Shown piece after piece: positions 1,859-44,589 of a DNA stretch of 45,353 bases. Position numbers and translations under genes: made by a program. Every line of letters starts with the position of its first letter. Position 1 is the first letter of the stretch. Source of the stretch: a virus; the IMG/VR virus record IMGVR_UViG_3300049732_000045, positions 1-45,353 of that record. One strand, given 5' to 3'. Under the pieces are notes generated by a model. The model did not search any database and was not told the origin of the DNA. It was given only the letters and a program-made list of their open reading frames with translations.

Positions 1859-2047
1859 TCAACCAGGGCTCACAGTAACAGGTGAGGCAGGGGTTGGGTC
1901 AGAAGTCAAGAGCTGTACTCGTAGCTTGGTAATCTGCTCCTCTAAATCCTCTTTTACCACTTCCAGCACAGCAATCTGCTGTGCCTGTGTTGCTACCACC
2001 TTGGCTAGCTTGTCGAGCACCCTGGAAACTGGCAGCTCTCGATCCAT
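1859..2047 (-). CDS. 62-aa coiled-coil protein
   Basis: ATG overlaps the spike stop (TAATG), so translation is coupled. Residues about 8-48 form a heptad-like coiled coil (DKLAKVVATQAQQIAVLEVV...), followed by a Pro/Thr/Ser-rich tail. Last gene of the late operon. A small spike chaperone or trimerisation helper would fit the position, but this is inference. Confidence 0.75.
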   Translation of the reverse strand: MDRELPVSRVLDKLAKVVATQAQQIAVLEVVKEDLEEQITKLRVQLLTSDPTPASPVTVSPG

Positions 2048-5000
2048 TAGTTTGCCTCTGATTCATGCACGAATCCCCAACCGAAGTGGGCTTCGAGCGC
2101 CTTGACAAGTTGTTCCATGTCTACACGGAGGCGACGACCAGTAACCGTATCCACTGAATCATAGACCCAGCGGCCTGCATCGTCGTGCGGTGACAGCAGT
2201 GTAGCGTTACCAGCAGCGTCCATGACCCGCAGCTCTCCAGACGTAGAGTACAACGAGATGCCGTTAGCTAGGGTACTAGTGGGTGCGGTCCCGTCGAAGA
2301 TATCCAGGCGTCTAGTACCAGCTGTCCCAGCGCGGGCAGCGGACCCTCCAATCTGGAGTGAGCTAGTCAGGTCCATCCGCATGACCTCAGCGCTGTTGAC
2401 CCCCATGATGACCGGGGTGTTCCCGAACGTGCCAATGAGGAGTCCGTTACCTGCGACAGCCCCAAGCAGCTCTGTCCAACCTCCAATTGTTACTCCGAAT
2501 CGGGTGACAGTACGACCGGAGCTGTGAGCCTGAAACTGCAATGTCGCTATGTCAGAAGCCATCTGAAGTCTAGCAACGGCGCCCGTCCCGACGAACGAGT
2601 TTTGAACCTTGATAAACGCTTCGTTGTTGAGATGCTTTGTCGCCTGTAGGGATTCAGTGATCAGCGTTGCCGTACCAGGTGGGGTCTTGGTGTTAGTCAT
2701 TACACGAGTAAGGGTCCCAGTGCTTCCGACAGCCACGAAGATTTGACGGTCAGGAGACCAACAGACACCTCGCCAGTCGTTATCAGCTGCACTGGTTCGT
2801 GTCGTCCAGCTGATGCCGTCGTAAGACGACATGATCCGGTTGCCGGTGCCAGTCGCCGCCACCGCTAAGAAGACCTGTAAGTCTGGTGACCACTCTACGT
2901 CACGCCATTCATTATCAGCAGCGCTCGTTCTAGAGGTCCACACAAACCCATTTGGAGAGGTCATTACCCTGTTACCAGTGCCAGTGACGGCAGTTGCAAC
3001 AAGCAACTGAAGCTCTGGCGACCAGCAGAGACCGATCCATTGGTTGTCCGCTGCACTCGTCTGGATCGACCAGTTGATGCCGTCAGGTGAGGTCATTACC
3101 CTGTTGCCCGTTCCGCTAGTGGCAACTGCCACAAACAAACGAAGCTCCGGTACCCACACCACACGCCGCCATTCATTATCAGCAGCCGATGTGCGCGAGG
3201 TCCAGTTGATCCCATCTGGCGAAGTCATTACACGGTTTCCCGAACCAGACTGGGCGACTGCAACAAAGAGAGACAATTCAGGTGACCAGCAGACACCGTT
3301 CCACGTATTCGCCGCAGCTGCACTTCGAGAGGTCCAGGTGATTCCATCGGGGGAAGTCATCACTCGGTTAGTGCCGTCTTGAGAGACCGCTACGAAGAGC
3401 AACAGCGACGGTGCCCAACAGACGGTAACCCAGGTATTGTCCGCTGCACTTGTCCTAGTGGTCCAAGTCGCACCATCTGGAGAGGTCATTACTCGGGTAC
3501 CCGTGCCAGAGAACGCAATCGCAACAAACAAAGCCAACTCAGGAGACCAACAAACGTCAATCCAAGAATTGTCTGTGCTATTGATCTGCGTACCCCACGC
3601 GCCGCTTTTGATCGCTTGTTCAGTGATCGTTCTCTCACTGGAATGGGCCATCAGACGACGCCCGTTCCGGTACACTGGGGTCCCCGAGTCCGAGTTGTTC
3701 GCGGCCAACTGCGTCACGTCATAGTCACCGTTGACATAGTTGCCATAGCCACCCGACAAGGTAATCGACGGGTTGCCACCGTAGGTATACAGGTTGTTGA
3801 TGATGCAATGTTCCATCTCCACCAACCACGCACCACCAGCGGCCCCGATAGAGTAAACATGGACGTTGTTGGCCACACACCGTCGTGTCCATACCATCCC
3901 GAAGCCGGTGTATGGCGAGCCATTACCATGGACAGCGATGTTCGAGATTTGGCACGCTGCCGAACGCTGGAGTTTAAAGCCACGTCCAGCTGCTACCGTG
4001 TCATGGACGATATTGACGTTGGAGATTTGGCAGTTGGCGAGAGACCCCAAAGCAGGTCCAAACCCTGTGGACTGCTCAGAGGATATGTTGTCAATCGTGC
4101 TCTTAGTCTGACGACCAAAGCTCACGTCCGCGAACGAACCATTCCCGCACTTCTTCACACGAATACTACGAGCGATGTTACCGTGTCCGGTATCCATCCA
4201 AAGCCCAGCTCCGGTAAGATTGATCAGGTTCATATCTTCGACTAGACAGTTACGGGCGACGTGCAGCGCGATCCCATGCGTATCCACGCCGGTATTGCCA
4301 GAGCCGTCGATTGTCCCACCACGAATGATGATCGTGCCGAAACTGGATGGGGCGTAGCGATTAACGTAGGCGTTCTTCAGCGTAGTGTAGCGCCAATACA
4401 ACGGGTCTGCGAGGGTGAGTGTCTGTGACGTGATTGCGAGCACTTGAGACACTTGTGCCCTACCATCATCCTCGTTAATTAGCACCCAATCTCCAACGAC
4501 GAGACCCAACGTAGACACACCACTTGCGACGAGCGTAATCTGGTTCGCAAATTCCGCTCCGTCCACATTCAGCTCCACTGGCCCGACACCGCTGCCTATC
4601 CAAGAGAACACCGTGTAGGATGCGCTAGTCGTTGGCTTAATCGTGGCGCTATTCAAGTCAAGAACATGGCCATTACGAAGGGTCAACGAGCTAGAAGTCT
4701 TGTAGGTCTTGCCACGTCCGAAGCTGACGTACAGCTCCGCGTTGAGCGCTGCCTGGATTGCAGCAGTATCATCTGCCACGCCGTTACCGACTGCGTTATA
4801 TGGAGGCGCGTCTACACAGACGGATGGGAGAGTGTTGGCCGTGAGCGTCGTGAAGGCCCCACTGTTGGGCGTAGTGCTGCCAATGGGTAATGGTGCGGCC
4901 CATGTCGCCCCCTGAAGTCTCTCAGCGTCCACAACCTCGATGAAGACTTGTTCGCCGGTTTGACCCTCTTCGTCTACCAGGACAAACGCTACCTGAGCAG

Positions 5001-5271
5001 GCTCGTAGTTAGTACCTCGCGTCGCGTCGATGGTCTTGATGATCAGTACATAATCACCCAGGACGGCATCGACTGGTGACTGCCACGAGTAGGTATAGAC
5101 GCCAGTCGCTACGTTGGTCGCGGCCTGTTCACTGACGACAGCAGCCCCGGTGATATCCTTGAGGGTGACCTTGGCTCCCCCCGAAGGGTTGTACAGAACA
5201 GGGATCTCAGCAGTATCGTCAAACGTGTTAAACCGGAGATGGATTAGCGATCCTACTTGGATACGTTTCAC
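2047..5271 (-). CDS. Tail spike: beta-helix with seven-repeat propeller-like domain
   Basis: 1074 aa, GTG start with GAAGG 8 nt upstream. Residues 1-110 form a beta-rich head that probably attaches to the tail. About 150-190 is the pectate-lyase-superfamily entry motif (Ala-x-Gly-x-Gly-x-Ala-Asp-Asp-Thr-Ala-Ala-Ile-Gln), followed by a right-handed beta-helix of short Gly/Asn-rich turns to about 540. About 560-860 hold seven tandem repeats near 42 aa with W..VCWSPEL.LFVAVA and RVMTSPDG..WT signatures, likely one seven-bladed propeller. The C-terminus (about 960-1074) resembles phage tail ends with a GELRVMDAAG segment. The likely role is host surface glycan recognition or cleavage; no catalytic residues can be assigned. 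Confidence 0.88.
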   Translation of the reverse strand: MKRIQVGSLIHLRFNTFDDTAEIPVLYNPSGGAKVTLKDITGAAVVSEQAATNVATGVYTYSWQSPVDAVLGDYVLIIKTIDATRGTNYEPAQVAFVLVDEEGQTGEQVFIEVVDAERLQGATWAAPLPIGSTTPNSGAFTTLTANTLPSVCVDAPPYNAVGNGVADDTAAIQAALNAELYVSFGRGKTYKTSSSLTLRNGHVLDLNSATIKPTTSASYTVFSWIGSGVGPVELNVDGAEFANQITLVASGVSTLGLVVGDWVLINEDDGRAQVSQVLAITSQTLTLADPLYWRYTTLKNAYVNRYAPSSFGTIIIRGGTIDGSGNTGVDTHGIALHVARNCLVEDMNLINLTGAGLWMDTGHGNIARSIRVKKCGNGSFADVSFGRQTKSTIDNISSEQSTGFGPALGSLANCQISNVNIVHDTVAAGRGFKLQRSAACQISNIAVHGNGSPYTGFGMVWTRRCVANNVHVYSIGAAGGAWLVEMEHCIINNLYTYGGNPSITLSGGYGNYVNGDYDVTQLAANNSDSGTPVYRNGRRLMAHSSERTITEQAIKSGAWGTQINSTDNSWIDVCWSPELALFVAIAFSGTGTRVMTSPDGATWTTRTSAADNTWVTVCWAPSLLLFVAVSQDGTNRVMTSPDGITWTSRSAAAANTWNGVCWSPELSLFVAVAQSGSGNRVMTSPDGINWTSRTSAADNEWRRVVWVPELRLFVAVATSGTGNRVMTSPDGINWSIQTSAADNQWIGLCWSPELQLLVATAVTGTGNRVMTSPNGFVWTSRTSAADNEWRDVEWSPDLQVFLAVAATGTGNRIMSSYDGISWTTRTSAADNDWRGVCWSPDRQIFVAVGSTGTLTRVMTNTKTPPGTATLITESLQATKHLNNEAFIKVQNSFVGTGAVARLQMASDIATLQFQAHSSGRTVTRFGVTIGGWTELLGAVAGNGLLIGTFGNTPVIMGVNSAEVMRMDLTSSLQIGGSAARAGTAGTRRLDIFDGTAPTSTLANGISLYSTSGELRVMDAAGNATLLSPHDDAGRWVYDSVDTVTGRRLRVDMEQLVKALEAHFGWGFVHESEAN
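2690..3590 (-). repeat. Seven tandem coding repeats (propeller blades)
   Basis: Seven units of roughly 126 bp in the spike gene share TSPDG, SAADN and WSPEL codons. Similarity is high at protein level and partial at DNA level, so the units are potentially recombinogenic. Confidence 0.85.
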
Positions 5272-31637: not shown

Positions 31638-32615
31638 TGTCTTCCTCCAATACCCGGATAGCTTCACGCTTCGCACGTAGATCCGGGGGTATGTAGCGTA
31701 GAGTCATCTCAATGTCCGAGTGCCCCAACAAACCCTGGATTGTCTTGAGGTCTACACCCTTGCTGTTTAGCTCCCCAGATCATGCCGCCTCAACGTAGGC
31801 AATCCAAGGCTCTTCCTGGCTTTGTCCCAGTGCCGGATGAACGTAGACAGCGCCTTGACTGGGTACACCGGGCCAGACTTAGGGAAGCCCTGCTCAGCCG
31901 CCAGCTTCTCCAACAAAACCCTGGCTGTCTTGTTCATCGGGATCACGCCGCTCTTACCCTTGCTCGTGTAGGTAATCAGATCACTGGCCCAGTCTACCTG
32001 TTCCCACTGTAGGTTGAGCACTACGTCACGTCTCACACCCAGGTGGAACAAGAGCTTAGCCCTGGTCTGATGCTGTGGTGGGAGAGCCGCCCATAGCTTC
32101 TCACGCTGTTCAGGAGTCAAGATGATCCACGACCGCCAAGGCTCACGTTCCCTCTTCACAACTTTAGCAGATGCAGGGTTGTACCCGGTGGGAACGTATC
32201 TTTTTAGCTGCGCCCAGGTGAAGAATGCGCTCAGGTAGGCCAACCGCCTATTGATCGTCGCCCCCTTGAGCTTGCCTATGGCAATAAGCTCGTCCTTGTA
32301 ATGCTGTACGTCGTCCATCGTCAGACGGTCTACAGTCGTGGTCTTGAATCGTTGACCAATGCTTGTGAGAATGGGCTTCACAGTCAAAGCGGTCACTGCA
32401 CCAACGGGATTGGTGTCTAGGTACTCCTTGATCGCTACACTCAGCAGTGGACCAGCTCCACCACCTTGGGACAGCTCATTACGTCGTACCGCCTCGGCGT
32501 CTAGGGCAGAACGTTTAGTAGGATAGCCGCTCTTCTCTTGCAGCTGCCCACGCCACCAGAAGCGGTACGACCACGCTCCCCCGCCAGATTTGTTCTTACG
32601 AAACCTCGCGCCCAG
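31630..32615 (-). pseudogene. int: Tyrosine integrase, frameshifted by an internal deletion
   Basis: First frame 31767-32615 (282 codons): an arm-binding start (ARFRKNKSGGGAWSYRF), core-binding region, catalytic part with LGVRRDVV (Arg I) and SKGKSG (Lys), ending RHDLGS then TAA. The second frame resumes as GVDLKTIQGLLGHSDIEMTLRYIPP with the LLGH histidine and the tyrosine, ending at 31630. Between RHDL and GVDLK about 11 residues are expected but only 17 nt remain. This fits a deletion of 16 bp (or 16+3n), which both shifts frame and removes the Arg of HxxR. The only start with a good site is CTG 32615 (AAGGAG, 7-nt spacer). As sequenced, it should be inactive. Confidence 0.85.
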
Positions 32616-37607: not shown

Positions 37608-37894
37608 TGGGACTGTTTAGATCCAAGCAAGTGACTAACCGTAGTCAAGAGTTGGGCGACTTGATTGATCGTCTTGAGACTCTTCGAGAGAACGTGAAGC
37701 GGGATCGTGAGGGCACCCTGTCGGTCCTGCGTGAGACTTCGCTTCAGCTAGCTGATCAAGACGACATGCTGGATGTGATGCACACGATGTGGCCGGATGA
37801 AACCCGCGCGGATGTTGAGGCGATGTGGCTTGGTGATCTTGAAGCTGACGAGCCACCCCCGGCTGAGACCAAGCCTGAGGAGCGGACTAGCTAA
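37607..37894 (+). CDS. Coiled-coil protein, 95 aa
   Basis: ATG overlaps the previous stop. Charged heptad helix (SQELGDLIDRLETLRENVKRDREGTLSVLRE), then an acidic Pro-rich tail. It may oligomerise or scaffold the neighbouring ATPase; inferred from position only. Confidence 0.72.
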   Translation: MGLFRSKQVTNRSQELGDLIDRLETLRENVKRDREGTLSVLRETSLQLADQDDMLDVMHTMWPDETRADVEAMWLGDLEADEPPPAETKPEERTS

Positions 37895-38697
37895 TGACTC
37901 TCAAGCGTCTAGAGCCGGAGAGCTGGCGGCGCAAGTTTAACCGTGCGCTGCTGATTGGGCCACCTAACTCGTGGAAGACCACGAGTCTCAAGACCTGGCC
38001 CAAGCCCATTGCCTACATCGCCTACCCAGGCGAGCTGGGCCTGTCGTCGGTCCCCATGGACGACCAGATCCAGGCTTGGTACTGGGAGCATGACCCAGTG
38101 ACTAAGCAGTCTCCGGGGGCAGCTCTGCGGGCTGTAGACGCCATCACAATCGAGATTCTGTCCGGTAAGCACGGTGAGTTTGCCACGTTTGCTGGTGATG
38201 GGTTGCACAAGCTGTACGAGCTGATCTACGCCGCAAGCCTAAGCGAGCTAGAGAACGGCCCACTCGGTGACAAAGTGGAGGCTGAGAAGCTGCGTGGTAT
38301 GGCCTATGGCCGAGCCCACAATGAGTTTCGCCAGCGCATTCAGCTAGTCAGCCAGTCCACCATCAGCAACGTGGTGATGACTGCCTGGTCCTCGATGGAG
38401 AAGGATGACCCGGAGAACGCTAGGAGCAAGAAACATGTGTGGCCTGGCTTGCCGGGGACGATGGGCCAAGACGTAGTGGGTGAGTTTGGCGCTGTGTTGT
38501 ATGCCAAGCCGGGTACCGAGATTGCCCCAGGCAAGTACACCGAGGGGCAGTGGCAGACACGGCGACACGGTGATGTGTGGGGTGTGGGGCTCAAGCTGCC
38601 CGTCAACATCGCCACGAAGATCCCCACGTTCGTCAAACAGGATTGGGTCGAGCTAGCTAGTCTAGTCGAGAAGATTGCGAGGGAGGAAGACAAGTGA
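37894..38697 (+). CDS. RecA/Sak4-like ATPase
   Basis: 267 aa. Walker A GPPNSWKTTS at 22-31, a Walker B-like stretch within FATFAGDGLHKLYELI and VVMTAWSSMEKDD. The overall length and order match Sak4-type single-strand annealing/RecA-fold ATPases of phages. With the upstream Cas4/RecB-like nuclease it forms a recombination pair. Confidence 0.75.
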   Translation: MTLKRLEPESWRRKFNRALLIGPPNSWKTTSLKTWPKPIAYIAYPGELGLSSVPMDDQIQAWYWEHDPVTKQSPGAALRAVDAITIEILSGKHGEFATFAGDGLHKLYELIYAASLSELENGPLGDKVEAEKLRGMAYGRAHNEFRQRIQLVSQSTISNVVMTAWSSMEKDDPENARSKKHVWPGLPGTMGQDVVGEFGAVLYAKPGTEIAPGKYTEGQWQTRRHGDVWGVGLKLPVNIATKIPTFVKQDWVELASLVEKIAREEDK

Positions 38698-39190: not shown

Positions 39191-39618
39191 TGGAAGACAC
39201 GATGTTCACTGACACGGAAGACCTGCTGAAGACCACGATGCTTGATGAAGACGAGATCAAGCGTATCCGTAAGGAATCTCGTCTCAACGGTACGTTTGTC
39301 ACTGTGCCTCCGATCAAGGTCACCAAGACCGAGGTCGTTGAGCCAGGCGTGGTCCTGGTCAAGATGCAGGCCGACGTGGTGAACGAGACGGACAAGGGCC
39401 GGGTGTTCTTCAGCATCATCAACAAGAACGTCCCTGGCTTCGACGGCAAGCCTGGCCTCAAGTCGCAGTTGTACCTGGCGGCTATCGAGACCTATGCCAA
39501 GGCTTACGGTAGCAAGCCTAGCAACATGGACGACCTGGTGAAGTACGTGACTGAGTATCCCATCACGGTCCGGGTCAACAACGGCTTCGTGGTCAACATC
39601 CGTCAGGTGGGTGGCTGA
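39190..39618 (+). CDS. Possible ssDNA-binding or annealing accessory, 142 aa
   Basis: ATG overlaps TAA (TAATG). Beta-rich core (TFVTVPPIKVTKTEVVEPGVVLVKMQADVV...VFFSIINKNV) and a helical end. The shape and location behind the Sak4-like gene would fit an OB-type ssDNA-binding protein, but no OB signature is clear. Confidence 0.6.
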   Translation: MEDTMFTDTEDLLKTTMLDEDEIKRIRKESRLNGTFVTVPPIKVTKTEVVEPGVVLVKMQADVVNETDKGRVFFSIINKNVPGFDGKPGLKSQLYLAAIETYAKAYGSKPSNMDDLVKYVTEYPITVRVNNGFVVNIRQVGG

Positions 39619-39866: not shown

Positions 39867-39944
39867 TGCGGGTAGGACTGGACCGGGACCAGCGGCGGGC
39901 TTGTAACCCGTATCAGGTGGGTTCGACTCCCACACCCGCTACCA
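39867..39944 (+). tRNA. tRNA-Thr(TGT)-like, non-canonical
   Basis: A T arm GTGGG TTCGACT CCCAC (39917-39933), an anticodon arm GCGGG CTTGTAA CCCGT (39895-39911, anticodon TGT) and an encoded CCA (39942-39944) are clear. The acceptor pairs over six positions; the first would be T-T. A D arm CTGG/CCAG with a consensus-like loop ACCGGGA exists, but its connectors are longer than usual (4 and 2 nt). Three consecutive G:C pairs and a 1:72 mismatch recall initiator tRNAs, but the anticodon reads ACA. Its CCA abuts the polymerase ATG. Confidence 0.62.
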
Positions 39945-41270
39945 ATGCGTAAACCTGACTCCTGTCTAGGGTGCCCGTTTTATGGCGACGGTCAGGGCTT
40001 CGTCCCTGACGAGATCGTTGAGGGTGCTCCTGTACTGGTAGTCATGCAAAACCCAGGTGCGGAAGAAGAGGCAGCTGGTAAGCCTGCCGTGGGGGCGACA
40101 GGGCAATTCCAGCAACGCCACTTCTTCCCACCTGCGGGATTGGTGCGTGGGCAAACGAGTATAGCTAATGCGTACCGTTGCCGTCACAAGCATACCAATG
40201 AGCTGCCTGAGCTGAACAGCCAGGTAGCTAGACAAGCTCTAACACATTGCACTAATGCCCACTTCAAGTTACCCGAGGGTGTTAAGTTGATTGTTGCACA
40301 AGGGGCCTACGCTTTGTATATGTTGACAGGTGAGGGCCTTGGTGACAACCGCACTGTGTCGAGCTGGCGTGGGTATGCCCTAAAGTACAACCCGATGCCA
40401 CGGCCTCTCTGGTCGCCCCCCACAGATATCTGGACCCCAGGTCCCAAAGATATCCCGGTGCTCGCGACACTACATGTGGCGTCACTGTTCCAAGACATGA
40501 AGATGTACCCGGCCTTGCAACATGACTGGTCCAAGGTTCCATTGATGCTTAGCCGGAAGTGGCCCTTGCCATTGCCGACTATCTTGGGACCACAGGATGT
40601 AGACCTGTGGCCTGGGACGTTGGCCTTTGACACTGAGTATGATCCAACGACACGACAGCTGCATCGCTTCAGTGTGTCAGGTTGCTTGCTGCGTGACGAG
40701 CCTAAGGTGTGGGTCATCGAAGCATCTGAGGCACACATGGTGCCAGATTTTCGATACGTCACAAAGGCTATCACACAGAATGCACTAGCTGACTTACCGT
40801 ACTGGCGTCAGTTTGGTGGTAACCCGTCAGTCATCGAAGACGAGATGTTGGCTCACTCCGTCTTGTGGTCTGACTTGCCACATGACCTTGAGTTTCTTGG
40901 CTCACTGTACGGCTACACAAACCGCTGGAAGCATCTGATGCACGGTAACCCCAGGGTGTACTCGGCGGCTGATGCGTACAACGAGCTAGCAGTATGGCTA
41001 GCACTAGAAAAGCAGCTCAAGCACGATGAAGCCAGTCGGTACATCTACTACCAGTCAGTGCTTCCGTTGGTACCGATCATTGAGAAAGCAGAGAAGCCTG
41101 GTCAGCGGGTGCATCAAGAGCGTACCAAGGTCATTGCCACTGCGCTCAAGAGACGTACTGAGGCAGCTAGGCTCAAGGCTCAAGCTGTCTGTGGTTGGCC
41201 CATTAACGTAGGTTCTACTGATCAAGTCCGTCACGAGCTGTACACGGTGCTGAATGGAGGCAAGGAATAG
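39945..41270 (+). CDS. Split DNA polymerase A, N-half: UDG-like + 3'-5' exonuclease
   Basis: 441 aa. Residues 1-175 resemble family 4 uracil-DNA glycosylase: CxxC at 7/10, further Cys at 79 and 102 ([4Fe-4S] spacing), MQNPGAEEEAAGKPAVGATG (motif A) and LHVASL near 177. About 225-380 is a DnaQ-like exonuclease with all three motifs: FDTEYD (D229, E231), QNALADLP, and YSAADAYNEL. The C-terminus ends in the polymerase thumb (INVGSTDQVRHELYTVLNGGKE), where an intact PolA would continue LGLP.... The polymerase half lies at 42136. ATG directly follows the tRNA CCA. Confidence 0.85.
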   Translation: MRKPDSCLGCPFYGDGQGFVPDEIVEGAPVLVVMQNPGAEEEAAGKPAVGATGQFQQRHFFPPAGLVRGQTSIANAYRCRHKHTNELPELNSQVARQALTHCTNAHFKLPEGVKLIVAQGAYALYMLTGEGLGDNRTVSSWRGYALKYNPMPRPLWSPPTDIWTPGPKDIPVLATLHVASLFQDMKMYPALQHDWSKVPLMLSRKWPLPLPTILGPQDVDLWPGTLAFDTEYDPTTRQLHRFSVSGCLLRDEPKVWVIEASEAHMVPDFRYVTKAITQNALADLPYWRQFGGNPSVIEDEMLAHSVLWSDLPHDLEFLGSLYGYTNRWKHLMHGNPRVYSAADAYNELAVWLALEKQLKHDEASRYIYYQSVLPLVPIIEKAEKPGQRVHQERTKVIATALKRRTEAARLKAQAVCGWPINVGSTDQVRHELYTVLNGGKE

Positions 41271-41485
41271 TGGAAGAGATTGGCAAGGCTTTGGTAGAGC
41301 TGATCAAGAGTGGTAGTGCGTTGGCACCTTCGATCATGTCGTACTGGTTCGCTGTAAAGATCATCGACAACCTGTCGAGCATCCTTTGTGGGGTCGTTGT
41401 GATGGGTGGCCTAGTTTGGATTGCGAAGGTGATCACGGATGCTATCCGTCATTGCAATGACGCCTACTACAACAGGCACCGATAA
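41270..41485 (+). CDS. Small membrane protein, 71 aa
   Basis: GTG overlaps the N-polymerase TAG (TAGTG). An amphipathic head and one membrane span (SSILCGVVVMGGLVWIAKVI), then a basic tail. First of three genes lying inside the split polymerase. Confidence 0.7.
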   Translation: MEEIGKALVELIKSGSALAPSIMSYWFAVKIIDNLSSILCGVVVMGGLVWIAKVITDAIRHCNDAYYNRHR

Positions 41486-41498
41486 CAGGGTGGGAAAC

Positions 41499-41717
41499 AT
41501 GGATACTGTCCGGCGTATTCGTTTTCAAGACAAGGATTACGTGCTTGTCGGTGGCAAGTATGTCCCTGGTGCAGCTATCGCTACGCCAGAGGCTTATGCC
41601 AACTTCGAGCCCTCTTACGCTCACCTGATGCCTGACGGTCGCATCATGCGATTCGGCAAGCAGATCGGTCAGGAGAGTGATATCACATACCTTCCTGACG
41701 AAGAGCAAGCGGCATGA
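41499..41717 (+). CDS. Hypothetical protein, 72 aa
   Basis: ATG at 41499 with GGGTGGG upstream. Basic start MDTVRRIRFQDKDYVLVGGKYVPG, then an acidic tail. No family is recognised. It overlaps the following gene by 4 nt. Confidence 0.65.
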   Translation: MDTVRRIRFQDKDYVLVGGKYVPGAAIATPEAYANFEPSYAHLMPDGRIMRFGKQIGQESDITYLPDEEQAA

Positions 41718-42169
41718 AGGTTAAGCCGCAAGTCGTCTACCTAATCGGTAGCCTGCGTAACCCTACGATTCCTGACATTGCTCGTAACTTGAGGGCCGTA
41801 GGCTTCGAGGTCTTTGACGATTGGTTTGCAGCTGGCCCCAATGCCGATGACTCCTGGCAGGAGTATGAGGCTCTACGTGGTAGATCCTATGGGGAAGCCC
41901 TCCAGGGCTATCACGCCACACACGTCTTCGAGCTAGACAAGCGCCACCTAGACCGTGCTGATCTAGGCATCCTGGTGATGCCCGCAGGTCGGTCTGGCCA
42001 CCTGGAGCTGGGCTACATCATCGGCCAGGGCAAGCCTGGGTACGTCTTGTTCGACCAGGAGCCCAACCGCTATGACGTGATGTACGGCTTTGCTACGTCC
42101 GTCCATTTCTCTGAGGCAACTTTGATTGGAGAGCTATGCCGTTCAAGAGAAAGAATCCCCGTAGCGTAG
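41714..42169 (+). CDS. Nucleoside 2-deoxyribosyltransferase-like, 151 aa
   Basis: Rossmann-like: QVVYLIGSLRNPTIPDIARNLRAVGFEVFDDWFAAGPNADD, then LDRADLGILVMPAGRSGHLELGYIIGQGKPGYVLF. The GSLRN entry, the D of DLGILV and SGHLELGY (catalytic Glu position in NDT-type proteins) support the family. It would transfer deoxyribose between bases or salvage nucleotides. It overlaps the C-polymerase start by 34 bp. Confidence 0.75.
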   Translation: MKVKPQVVYLIGSLRNPTIPDIARNLRAVGFEVFDDWFAAGPNADDSWQEYEALRGRSYGEALQGYHATHVFELDKRHLDRADLGILVMPAGRSGHLELGYIIGQGKPGYVLFDQEPNRYDVMYGFATSVHFSEATLIGELCRSRERIPVA

Positions 42170-43269
42170 ATAGCGACACGCTCCATGCCCTCGTGCAGAA
42201 GGGGGCGACACACCCACTGATCAAGGCTCGCCTGGAGTTTGCCGAGCCAGATCAGCTCAACAAGAATTTCATCAGCAAGCTAGTAGATGTTGAGCGGGTG
42301 TACCCCCGGATGTTGCCCACACAGAAGTCTGGCCGCTGGTCTACGACTGACCCACCGAGGGTCAACTTCCCGCCAGACTGCATCAGCCCGGACTGTGGGA
42401 TTAATCGCGATCATGTGCCGGAGGGTGAAGCCTGCTTCAGCTCCCGTGAGTGCATCGTGCCTGACCATGGGACGTACTGGCTCTGCTACGACTACGACGC
42501 TATTGAGGCCAAGATCGCTGCGGCTTACTCCAAAGACTCTACGGACCTTAACGCTTTCAGGTACGGTTATGACGTTCACACGATCACTGCCTGTGAGATG
42601 TTCGGCCTGCCGTTGCCTCCTAACCTCGTTAATCCGCACACGTTGCCTGAGTGTGCAAACTGGCGAGCGGCACACAATTGGGGTGGCAAGGATGATCGAC
42701 GTAGGCACTTGGCCAAGACGTTCCGGTATGCCTTGCTGTTTGGCTCTAGTGAGTATTCAGCCCTGGAGAGCCGGGATATCGAGAAGCTGGGGCTGACCCG
42801 TGAAGAGACTTTGCTTCAGGCTAGGCGCTACCTAGCTAGCAAGCCCTTGCTGACTAAGGCTAAGCGTGAGACCTGGGAGCTGGTAGCCAAGACGGGTGTG
42901 GCCCGCACCTTCCTGGGTAGACGCCGCATGTTGTTCATGCGTGGTGAAGATCACTACCGTTGGATCGCTGAGAACAAGCCCTGTGAGGCACAGCGTCAAG
43001 GCTGGTCCCACAAGGTCTCAGGTTCAGTCAGTGACATGATGAATCTGACTATCAAGAACATCACGACCTGGGACCCACACACCTACCTAGGGCTTAACAA
43101 ACATGACGGTGCGGAGATTGTTTTCCCAATGGCTAGACCCTTGTCAGTAGCTCTTGATATCTGTCGCCCCCTAGTCGAGCGGGAGTGGGATATCTACGGT
43201 CAGGTAATCAAGTCAACCGCCGAGTGGCACGTCGTCTATCCAGACGGCAGAAAGATGAAGGTTAAGTAA
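42136..43269 (+). CDS. Split DNA polymerase A, C-half: palm/fingers
   Basis: 377 aa. It begins in the thumb (NPRSVDSDTLHALVQKGATHPLIKARLEF), then SGRWSTTDPPRVNFP. Motif A DYDAIEAK (D119), motif B R190-x3-K194-x3-Y198-x3-FG, motif C HDG (H323, D324, with G325 in place of Glu) and the O-helix Tyr. It thus holds the catalytic aspartates. It must associate with the N-half at 39945 to give a polymerase with proofreading. ATG 42136 has GGAG upstream, inside the deoxyribosyltransferase-like gene. Confidence 0.87.
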   Translation: MPFKRKNPRSVDSDTLHALVQKGATHPLIKARLEFAEPDQLNKNFISKLVDVERVYPRMLPTQKSGRWSTTDPPRVNFPPDCISPDCGINRDHVPEGEACFSSRECIVPDHGTYWLCYDYDAIEAKIAAAYSKDSTDLNAFRYGYDVHTITACEMFGLPLPPNLVNPHTLPECANWRAAHNWGGKDDRRRHLAKTFRYALLFGSSEYSALESRDIEKLGLTREETLLQARRYLASKPLLTKAKRETWELVAKTGVARTFLGRRRMLFMRGEDHYRWIAENKPCEAQRQGWSHKVSGSVSDMMNLTIKNITTWDPHTYLGLNKHDGAEIVFPMARPLSVALDICRPLVEREWDIYGQVIKSTAEWHVVYPDGRKMKVK

Positions 43270-44119: not shown

Positions 44120-44589
44120 TGAGAGAACAGGTCTACATCGCTGGGAAGTTTGAGGCTCGTGCCAGGCTGCGTGGAATTCGTGAAGCCCTGCTACGTCTAG
44201 GCTACGAAGTCACGTCGAGCTGGTTGAGGGAGGGTGATCATCTCGAAGAGAACGCTGCATTTCTCGCTGACCCTGTTCGCTGTCTTGAGGTTGCCCACCG
44301 TGACGTGGATGAAGTCATGCGCTCTGACCTGTTCCTGCTAGACACCTACGACGAGAATAACCGTGGTGGTAGGGAGGTTGAGTTTGGTGCAGCGTACAAC
44401 TCGCCCGAGTCCATGGACATTTGGGTCATCGGTCCCATCCGTAACGTCTTTCATCATCTAGCCGATCAACACTACCCGAATTGGTCTGTGGCTCTGACTG
44501 CTCTAGCAAAGCGAGCCAGGGCACATGACGCTGCTCGTGAGCTAGTCAATGAGATGCCTGACGAGTTAGACGATGGGCAAGACACCTAA
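44119..44589 (+). CDS. Nucleoside 2-deoxyribosyltransferase-like, 156 aa
   Basis: GTG at 44119 with GGAGG 5 nt upstream, overlapping the previous TAG. QVYIAGKFEARARLRGIREALLRLGYEV (GxF/S loop), DEVMRSDLFLLDTYDENNRGGREVEFGAAY (D and the E-x-G-x-A catalytic segment) and WVIGPIRNVFHHL give the NDT fold. A second gene of this family, distinct from the one at 41714. A longer in-frame ORF to 44068 is rejected on ribosome site. Confidence 0.78.
   Translation: MREQVYIAGKFEARARLRGIREALLRLGYEVTSSWLREGDHLEENAAFLADPVRCLEVAHRDVDEVMRSDLFLLDTYDENNRGGREVEFGAAYNSPESMDIWVIGPIRNVFHHLADQHYPNWSVALTALAKRARAHDAARELVNEMPDELDDGQDT

Follow-up and report, generated by a model that had tools for sequence, protein, structure and literature searches.

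A phage family A DNA polymerase in two genes, cut at the tip of the thumb and probably descended from one old fission

How does a DNA polymerase whose coding sequence breaks off within the thumb, and resumes only beyond a run of other genes, come about, and do its two parts still make one enzyme? The question is raised by the 45,353-base IMG/VR virus record IMGVR_UViG_3300049732_000045, a metagenomic record that is taken here in its whole length (the window) and in which one UDG-exonuclease-PolA polymerase is encoded by two genes, both on the plus strand within positions 39945-43269. The N-half (39945-41270, +; 441 aa), ending in ...VGSTDQVRHELYTVLNGGKE, joins a family-4-like UDG and a 3'-5' exonuclease to the thumb helices H and H1. 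The C-half (42136-43269, +; 377 aa), beginning with MPFKRKNPRSVDSDTLHALV, continues the thumb with helices H2 and I, followed by the palm and fingers that bear motifs A, B and C; the four helix names are assigned after Klenow. The C-half start is preceded by a good ribosome-binding site (GGAGAG CT ATG) with a clear Shine-Dalgarno sequence, GGAGAG. A preliminary description had placed genes for a membrane protein, a 72-aa protein and a deoxyribosyltransferase-like protein in about 0.87 kb between the halves, and we indeed found 865 nt from the N-half stop to the C-half start, with three small ORFs in that space. The first (41270-41485, +; 71 aa) has a hydrophobic stretch and a GTG start that shares 1 nt with the N-half stop, and it matched no Pfam family and one PHROGs profile marginally (E 0.05). 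The second (41499-41717, +; 72 aa) had no match in Pfam or PHROGs, and the third (41714-42169, +; 151 aa) is nucleoside deoxyribosyltransferase-like (phrog_12607, E 5e-16), with an ATGA overlap at its upstream junction and a 34-nt overlap with the C-half. The tight overlap reported for every junction was thus seen at all but one, the membrane protein and 72-aa genes being separated by a 13-nt gap.

Upstream on the same strand lie an AAA_24/Sak4-like ATPase gene (37894-38697; Pfam and PHROGs), syntenic in split and several unsplit relatives, and a gene for a possible single-strand DNA-binding protein (39193-39618; weak phrog_5738 match), which is syntenic in relatives and has homologues in L004, L005, L011 and L030. 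Directly 5' of the N-half, ARAGORN placed a tRNA-Thr (TGT; 39868-39940, +), whose 3' end lies 4 nt ahead of the N-half start codon; the same stretch gave a weak Rfam tRNA-Sec match below the gathering threshold. Downstream, a second deoxyribosyltransferase-like gene (44131-44589; weak Pfam match) has homologues in L030, where the gene directly follows the polymerase, and in L005 and L017, where it lies elsewhere.

The two products carry the domains and catalytic residues of a single polymerase. Against Pfam, the N-half matched UDG just below the gathering score (E 5e-5) and the PolA 3'-5' exonuclease weakly, and the C-half matched DNA_pol_A (E 2.6e-23); in PHROGs both matched one DNA polymerase profile, phrog_17, consecutively (565-911, then 925-1171). 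Foldseek related the N-half to family 4 UDG (E 4e-10) and family A polymerases and the C-half to Bst/Taq Pol I (E 3e-16), and the N-half profile aligned to Klenow from exonuclease to thumb (E 1e-15). The DTE, NALAD and YSAAD motifs of a DnaQ-like exonuclease are all present in the N-half, in agreement with the UDG-like and exonuclease content first ascribed to it. On the Pol I fold of the C-half, the motif A Asp, motif B Arg/Lys and motif C HD of family A polymerases were found, and D119/E124, R190/K194 and H323/D324 are invariant in the alignment of relatives. The earlier claim that the C-half has all polymerase motifs holds as far as the catalytic carboxylates and the Arg/Lys of motif B are concerned and needs qualifying for motif C, which reads HDG, not HDE. 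HD[GSA] in place of HDE runs through the whole phage group, in split and fused polymerases alike, and the change in motif C is therefore not linked to the split. The four Fe-S cysteines of the family 4-like UDG (C7, C10, C79 and C102) are likewise invariant among relatives. UDG motif 1 is QNPG and motif 2 LHVAS, both altered, so that we do not claim UDG activity; judged from these motifs, the catalytic status of the domain is uncertain. The order of domains is that of the UDG-exonuclease-polymerase enzymes, an N-terminal family 4-like UDG followed by exonuclease and polymerase, but it is distributed over two ORFs with their own starts and three genes between them instead of a single polypeptide.

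The position of the cut can be given closely. The N-half stops just past an [IF]NxxSxxQ segment and the C-half begins just ahead of the next helix, about 100 residues ahead of motif A. In the AlphaFold2 model of the N-half (pLDDT 88) the terminal helices span residues 391-416 and 425-435, and in that of the C-half (pLDDT 84.5) the first helices span 13-21 and 27-49, with the palm following. Aligned to solved Pol I sequences, the N profile runs to about residue 247 of the Bst chain and the C profile sets in at about 258, so that the two adjoin. From the models, the Foldseek matches and the adjoining profile ends, the cut therefore lies in the tip loop of the thumb hairpin. The thumb and the junction ends are among the least confident parts of both single-chain models, the remainder of which models well; such low confidence would be expected if each chain needed its partner. 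Joined end to end, the halves align with the intact polymerase of a Manatee Spring phage over 826 columns at 30% identity, leaving only a few thumb-tip loop residues without a counterpart, which bears out the proposal that a PolA was split in the thumb and that its halves rebuild the full alignment.

Single-sequence searches of viral contigs with either half as query gave no match, and the IMG/VR relatives were recovered by alignment-based scans with two-row alignment queries and sorted by their open frames into four states. The first is an intact single ORF, in L001, L006, L017, L019 (with L018, L025 and L028 as near-copies or partial copies), L026, L027, L031 and L032. L001 is MW202645, one of four nearly identical Manatee Spring phage records with a homologue; in MW202645 an intact 827-aa ORF stands behind an AAA-domain gene in a similar gene context; L006 carries an intact homologue of 878 aa with the same domain order. 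In the second state the UDG is detached from Exo-Pol as a gene of its own, in L007 (3381-9974), where about 4 kb with glycosyltransferase-like and other genes lies between, and in L021 (5851-8993); on the tree these count as two separate changes. The third, in which the break falls between thumb and palm and the two parts overlap by 11 nt (ATGCTCAGTGA), is known from a single contig, L008 (7992-10584), where a sequencing frameshift is possible. The fourth, the thumb-tip cut, was found in 11 lineages (12 contigs) from different metagenomes: the window, L004, L005, L009/L010, L011, L014, L015, L016, L020, L029 and L030. The UDG-Exo-Pol polymerase appears to have been cut repeatedly at domain borders in this phage group, twice between UDG and Exo, once at the thumb tip and once between thumb and palm.

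The 10 further lineages with the thumb-tip cut share about 30-45% identity with the window. In all split loci the N-half precedes the C-half on one strand within about 1.03 kb, and the start of the C-half falls at an equivalent position, often reading MP..., just ahead of a conserved helix. Both parts of the thumb are still recognisable in 11/11 lineages, which without exception also keep the Exo DxE, the ExoII and ExoIII D, the motif A D/E, the motif B R/K and the motif C HD. The two scans of genome contigs found no relative, and hence no host or prophage, and searches of cultured phages with the halves of L005, L014 and L016 matched only the Manatee contigs and no cultured split member. As the split loci all come from metagenome contigs, the viability of such phages with only these genes is assumed.

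The 11 thumb-tip-split rows formed one clade (100/99) when the joined proteins were placed in a maximum-likelihood tree whose outgroups were SPO1-like and Acinetobacter polymerases, both fused. The clade was recovered again in trees of the N-half alone (100/100) and of the C-half alone (95/94). Since fused proteins make up the outgroups and most of the sister lineages, parsimony points to fission as the direction of change. The intact ORFs all fall outside the split clade and are not close relatives, and the combination that would speak against an evolved split, an intact polymerase in close relatives together with misassembly in the window, was not encountered. Pairwise N and C distances were correlated among split loci (r=0.943) as tightly as among unsplit relatives (r=0.934), and partners therefore do not appear to have been exchanged. 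In close pairs nonsynonymous change was far below synonymous change in both halves, pointing to purifying selection, with synonymous sites near saturation. The best reading of these alignments and trees is that one old gene fission at the thumb tip has been inherited by at least 11 phage lineages.

The space between the halves varies widely, the stop and start codons overlapping by 1 nt in L005 and lying 17 nt apart in L020, 65 nt in L011, 135 nt in L004, about 150-200 nt in L010, about 0.5 kb in L014-L016, 0.79 kb in L029, 0.87 kb in the window and 1.03 kb in L030. Compared across the split loci, the intervening ORFs showed no similarity to one another, and in L005 and L020 the cut is present with no gene between the halves at all; the intervening genes therefore look like later arrivals. 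The window deoxyribosyltransferase (41714-42169) is 48% identical to a gene of Paracoccus phage ParKuw1; its homologues in L007, L021 and other phages lie at a distance from the polymerase. It thus appears that the locus was split first and that small genes then came in on several independent occasions. The polymerase had first been described as split by its three small genes; these do lie between the halves, but they are probably not the cause of the cut, which exists without them and is accompanied by different ORFs from locus to locus.

We consider it highly probable that the products of the two genes are subunits of one family A polymerase, derived from a single old fission at the thumb tip and reassembling as a working heterodimer. 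The fission would have cut the coding sequence in the thumb-tip loop, between helices H/H1 and H2/I, leaving one of the two strands of the thumb hairpin with the UDG and the proofreading exonuclease in the N-half, and the other with the palm and the fingers in the C-half. The halves would be translated separately but adjacently and would most likely assemble non-covalently into a heterodimer, held together mainly by the thumb helices that they share and by the interface of exonuclease and palm. The gap between the genes would then have been tolerated as a landing site for unrelated small genes, three of them in the window phage. We infer the physical assembly of the halves and their polymerase activity; the heterodimer is supported by a case from family B, the split polymerase 43A/43B of Aeromonas phage 25, whose halves co-purify and are active (PMC2988022).

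An improbable alternative is that each product acts as an enzyme on its own: the N-half would be a free UDG/exonuclease that serves in repair or degrades host DNA, and the C-half a polymerase without proofreading. The UDG and exonuclease unit does model well alone, and the detached UDG of L007 and L021 indicates that the domains can live apart. However, the thumb is cut mid-way with both of its parts retained throughout the split clade, and the two genes have remained close together and have coevolved no less tightly than fused ones.

Subunits that remain separate are also strongly favoured over halves joined after expression into one polypeptide, by an intron, a split intein, ribosomal bypass or frameshifting, which we regard as very improbable. 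Phage polymerase genes with group I introns and inteins are known (PMC10580990, PMC6892783), and in L005, L011 and L020 the open reading frames of the two halves overlap in a -1 relation that would make frameshifting possible there. In the window, however, an Rfam scan of 37.0-45.35 kb (E<=1) returned nothing besides tRNA, and hence no intron RNA, neither junction end carries extra sequence of intein size, and no homing endonuclease was found at the split, so that insertion of any of these elements, already thought absent, was rejected. Moreover, a frameshift cannot plausibly bridge 865 nt containing three genes, the C-half has its own Shine-Dalgarno sequence and start, and the intervening ORFs of the relatives are unrelated to one another. 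An assembly or sequencing artefact, conceivable in principle for a metagenomic virus record, has a practically negligible chance, given the neat start, stop and ribosome-binding signals and the identical cut in 10 further diverged lineages, and the initial view that the split evolved and is no assembly gap is upheld by its occurrence in one clade of 11 lineages that keep their motifs.

An extension of the heterodimer reading, which we put forward as rather unlikely, is that the fission is functional and not merely tolerated: it might yield an assembly-controlled enzyme whose UDG/exonuclease half could vary in amount or act alone, and make the thumb tip a docking site at which another phage or host protein could hold both chains. 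The thumb tip is near the place where T7 polymerase takes up thioredoxin.

Akin to the arrangement proposed here, phage N4 RNA polymerase II, a two-subunit RNA polymerase of the T7 family, forms a single-subunit-type polymerase fold from two assembling polypeptides, although it is an RNA polymerase of another protein family with another cut site. Among DNA polymerases, the closest parallel is the split family A polymerase of Methylophilales phages MEP401/MEP402 (Zobellviridae; PMC10580990, OP830906), a type of split present in most of their group, for which the authors thought an intron possible (PMC10580990). It too is divided over two neighbouring genes, which enclose a small unrelated ORF. 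The MEP401/MEP402 N-half, however, lacks a UDG and ends in ...LQNFDGEIKTLFLSRYGE, and the C-half starts with MILNADAKALEW, placing the cut after the thumb, just ahead of motif A; the window, with its thumb-tip cut and UDG, is not of this type. The T4-like gp43A/gp43B of Aeromonas phages 25 and 44RR (PMC2988022) is likewise a replicative polymerase in two genes, but belongs to family B and is split with a homing endonuclease or intercistronic untranslated sequence, neither of which was seen in the window. Fused UDG-exonuclease-PolA polymerases with the same domain order are found in the Manatee Spring phage MW202645 and its kin, homologous to the window halves over the whole length and sharing gene context, and in phage PaBG (gp205; PMC7412058); these differ in being one polypeptide with an uninterrupted thumb. 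Split family A polymerases were thus already known, with MEP401/MEP402 as one clear precedent, and what is new is the long-inherited cut at the thumb tip. The literature searched, in which MEP401/MEP402 and the T4-like 43A/43B were the relevant priors, held no report of a thumb-tip split of a family A polymerase, nor of a single deep origin, a UDG-bearing N-half, varied inserts or repeated fragmentation in sister lineages.

The tree thus supports a family A polymerase, cut in the DNA-gripping element, that has persisted as two polypeptides while its lineages diverged deeply. For the engineering of split polymerases it provides natural split points, and the set of fused and split homologues can serve as a test of how gene fission becomes fixed. 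It is also a warning for annotation, in which one half may be entered as a 'DNA polymerase' gene and the other as a 'UDG' gene.

Two further features were noted elsewhere in the window, both on the minus strand. A short ORF (31767-32396; 209 aa), judged by eye to be tyrosine-recombinase-like, is possibly truncated, and a 1074-aa tail or fibre-like protein (2047-5271) contains about eight tandem repeats of the type AADNxWxxVCWSPELxLFVAVAxxGTGxRVMTSPDG.
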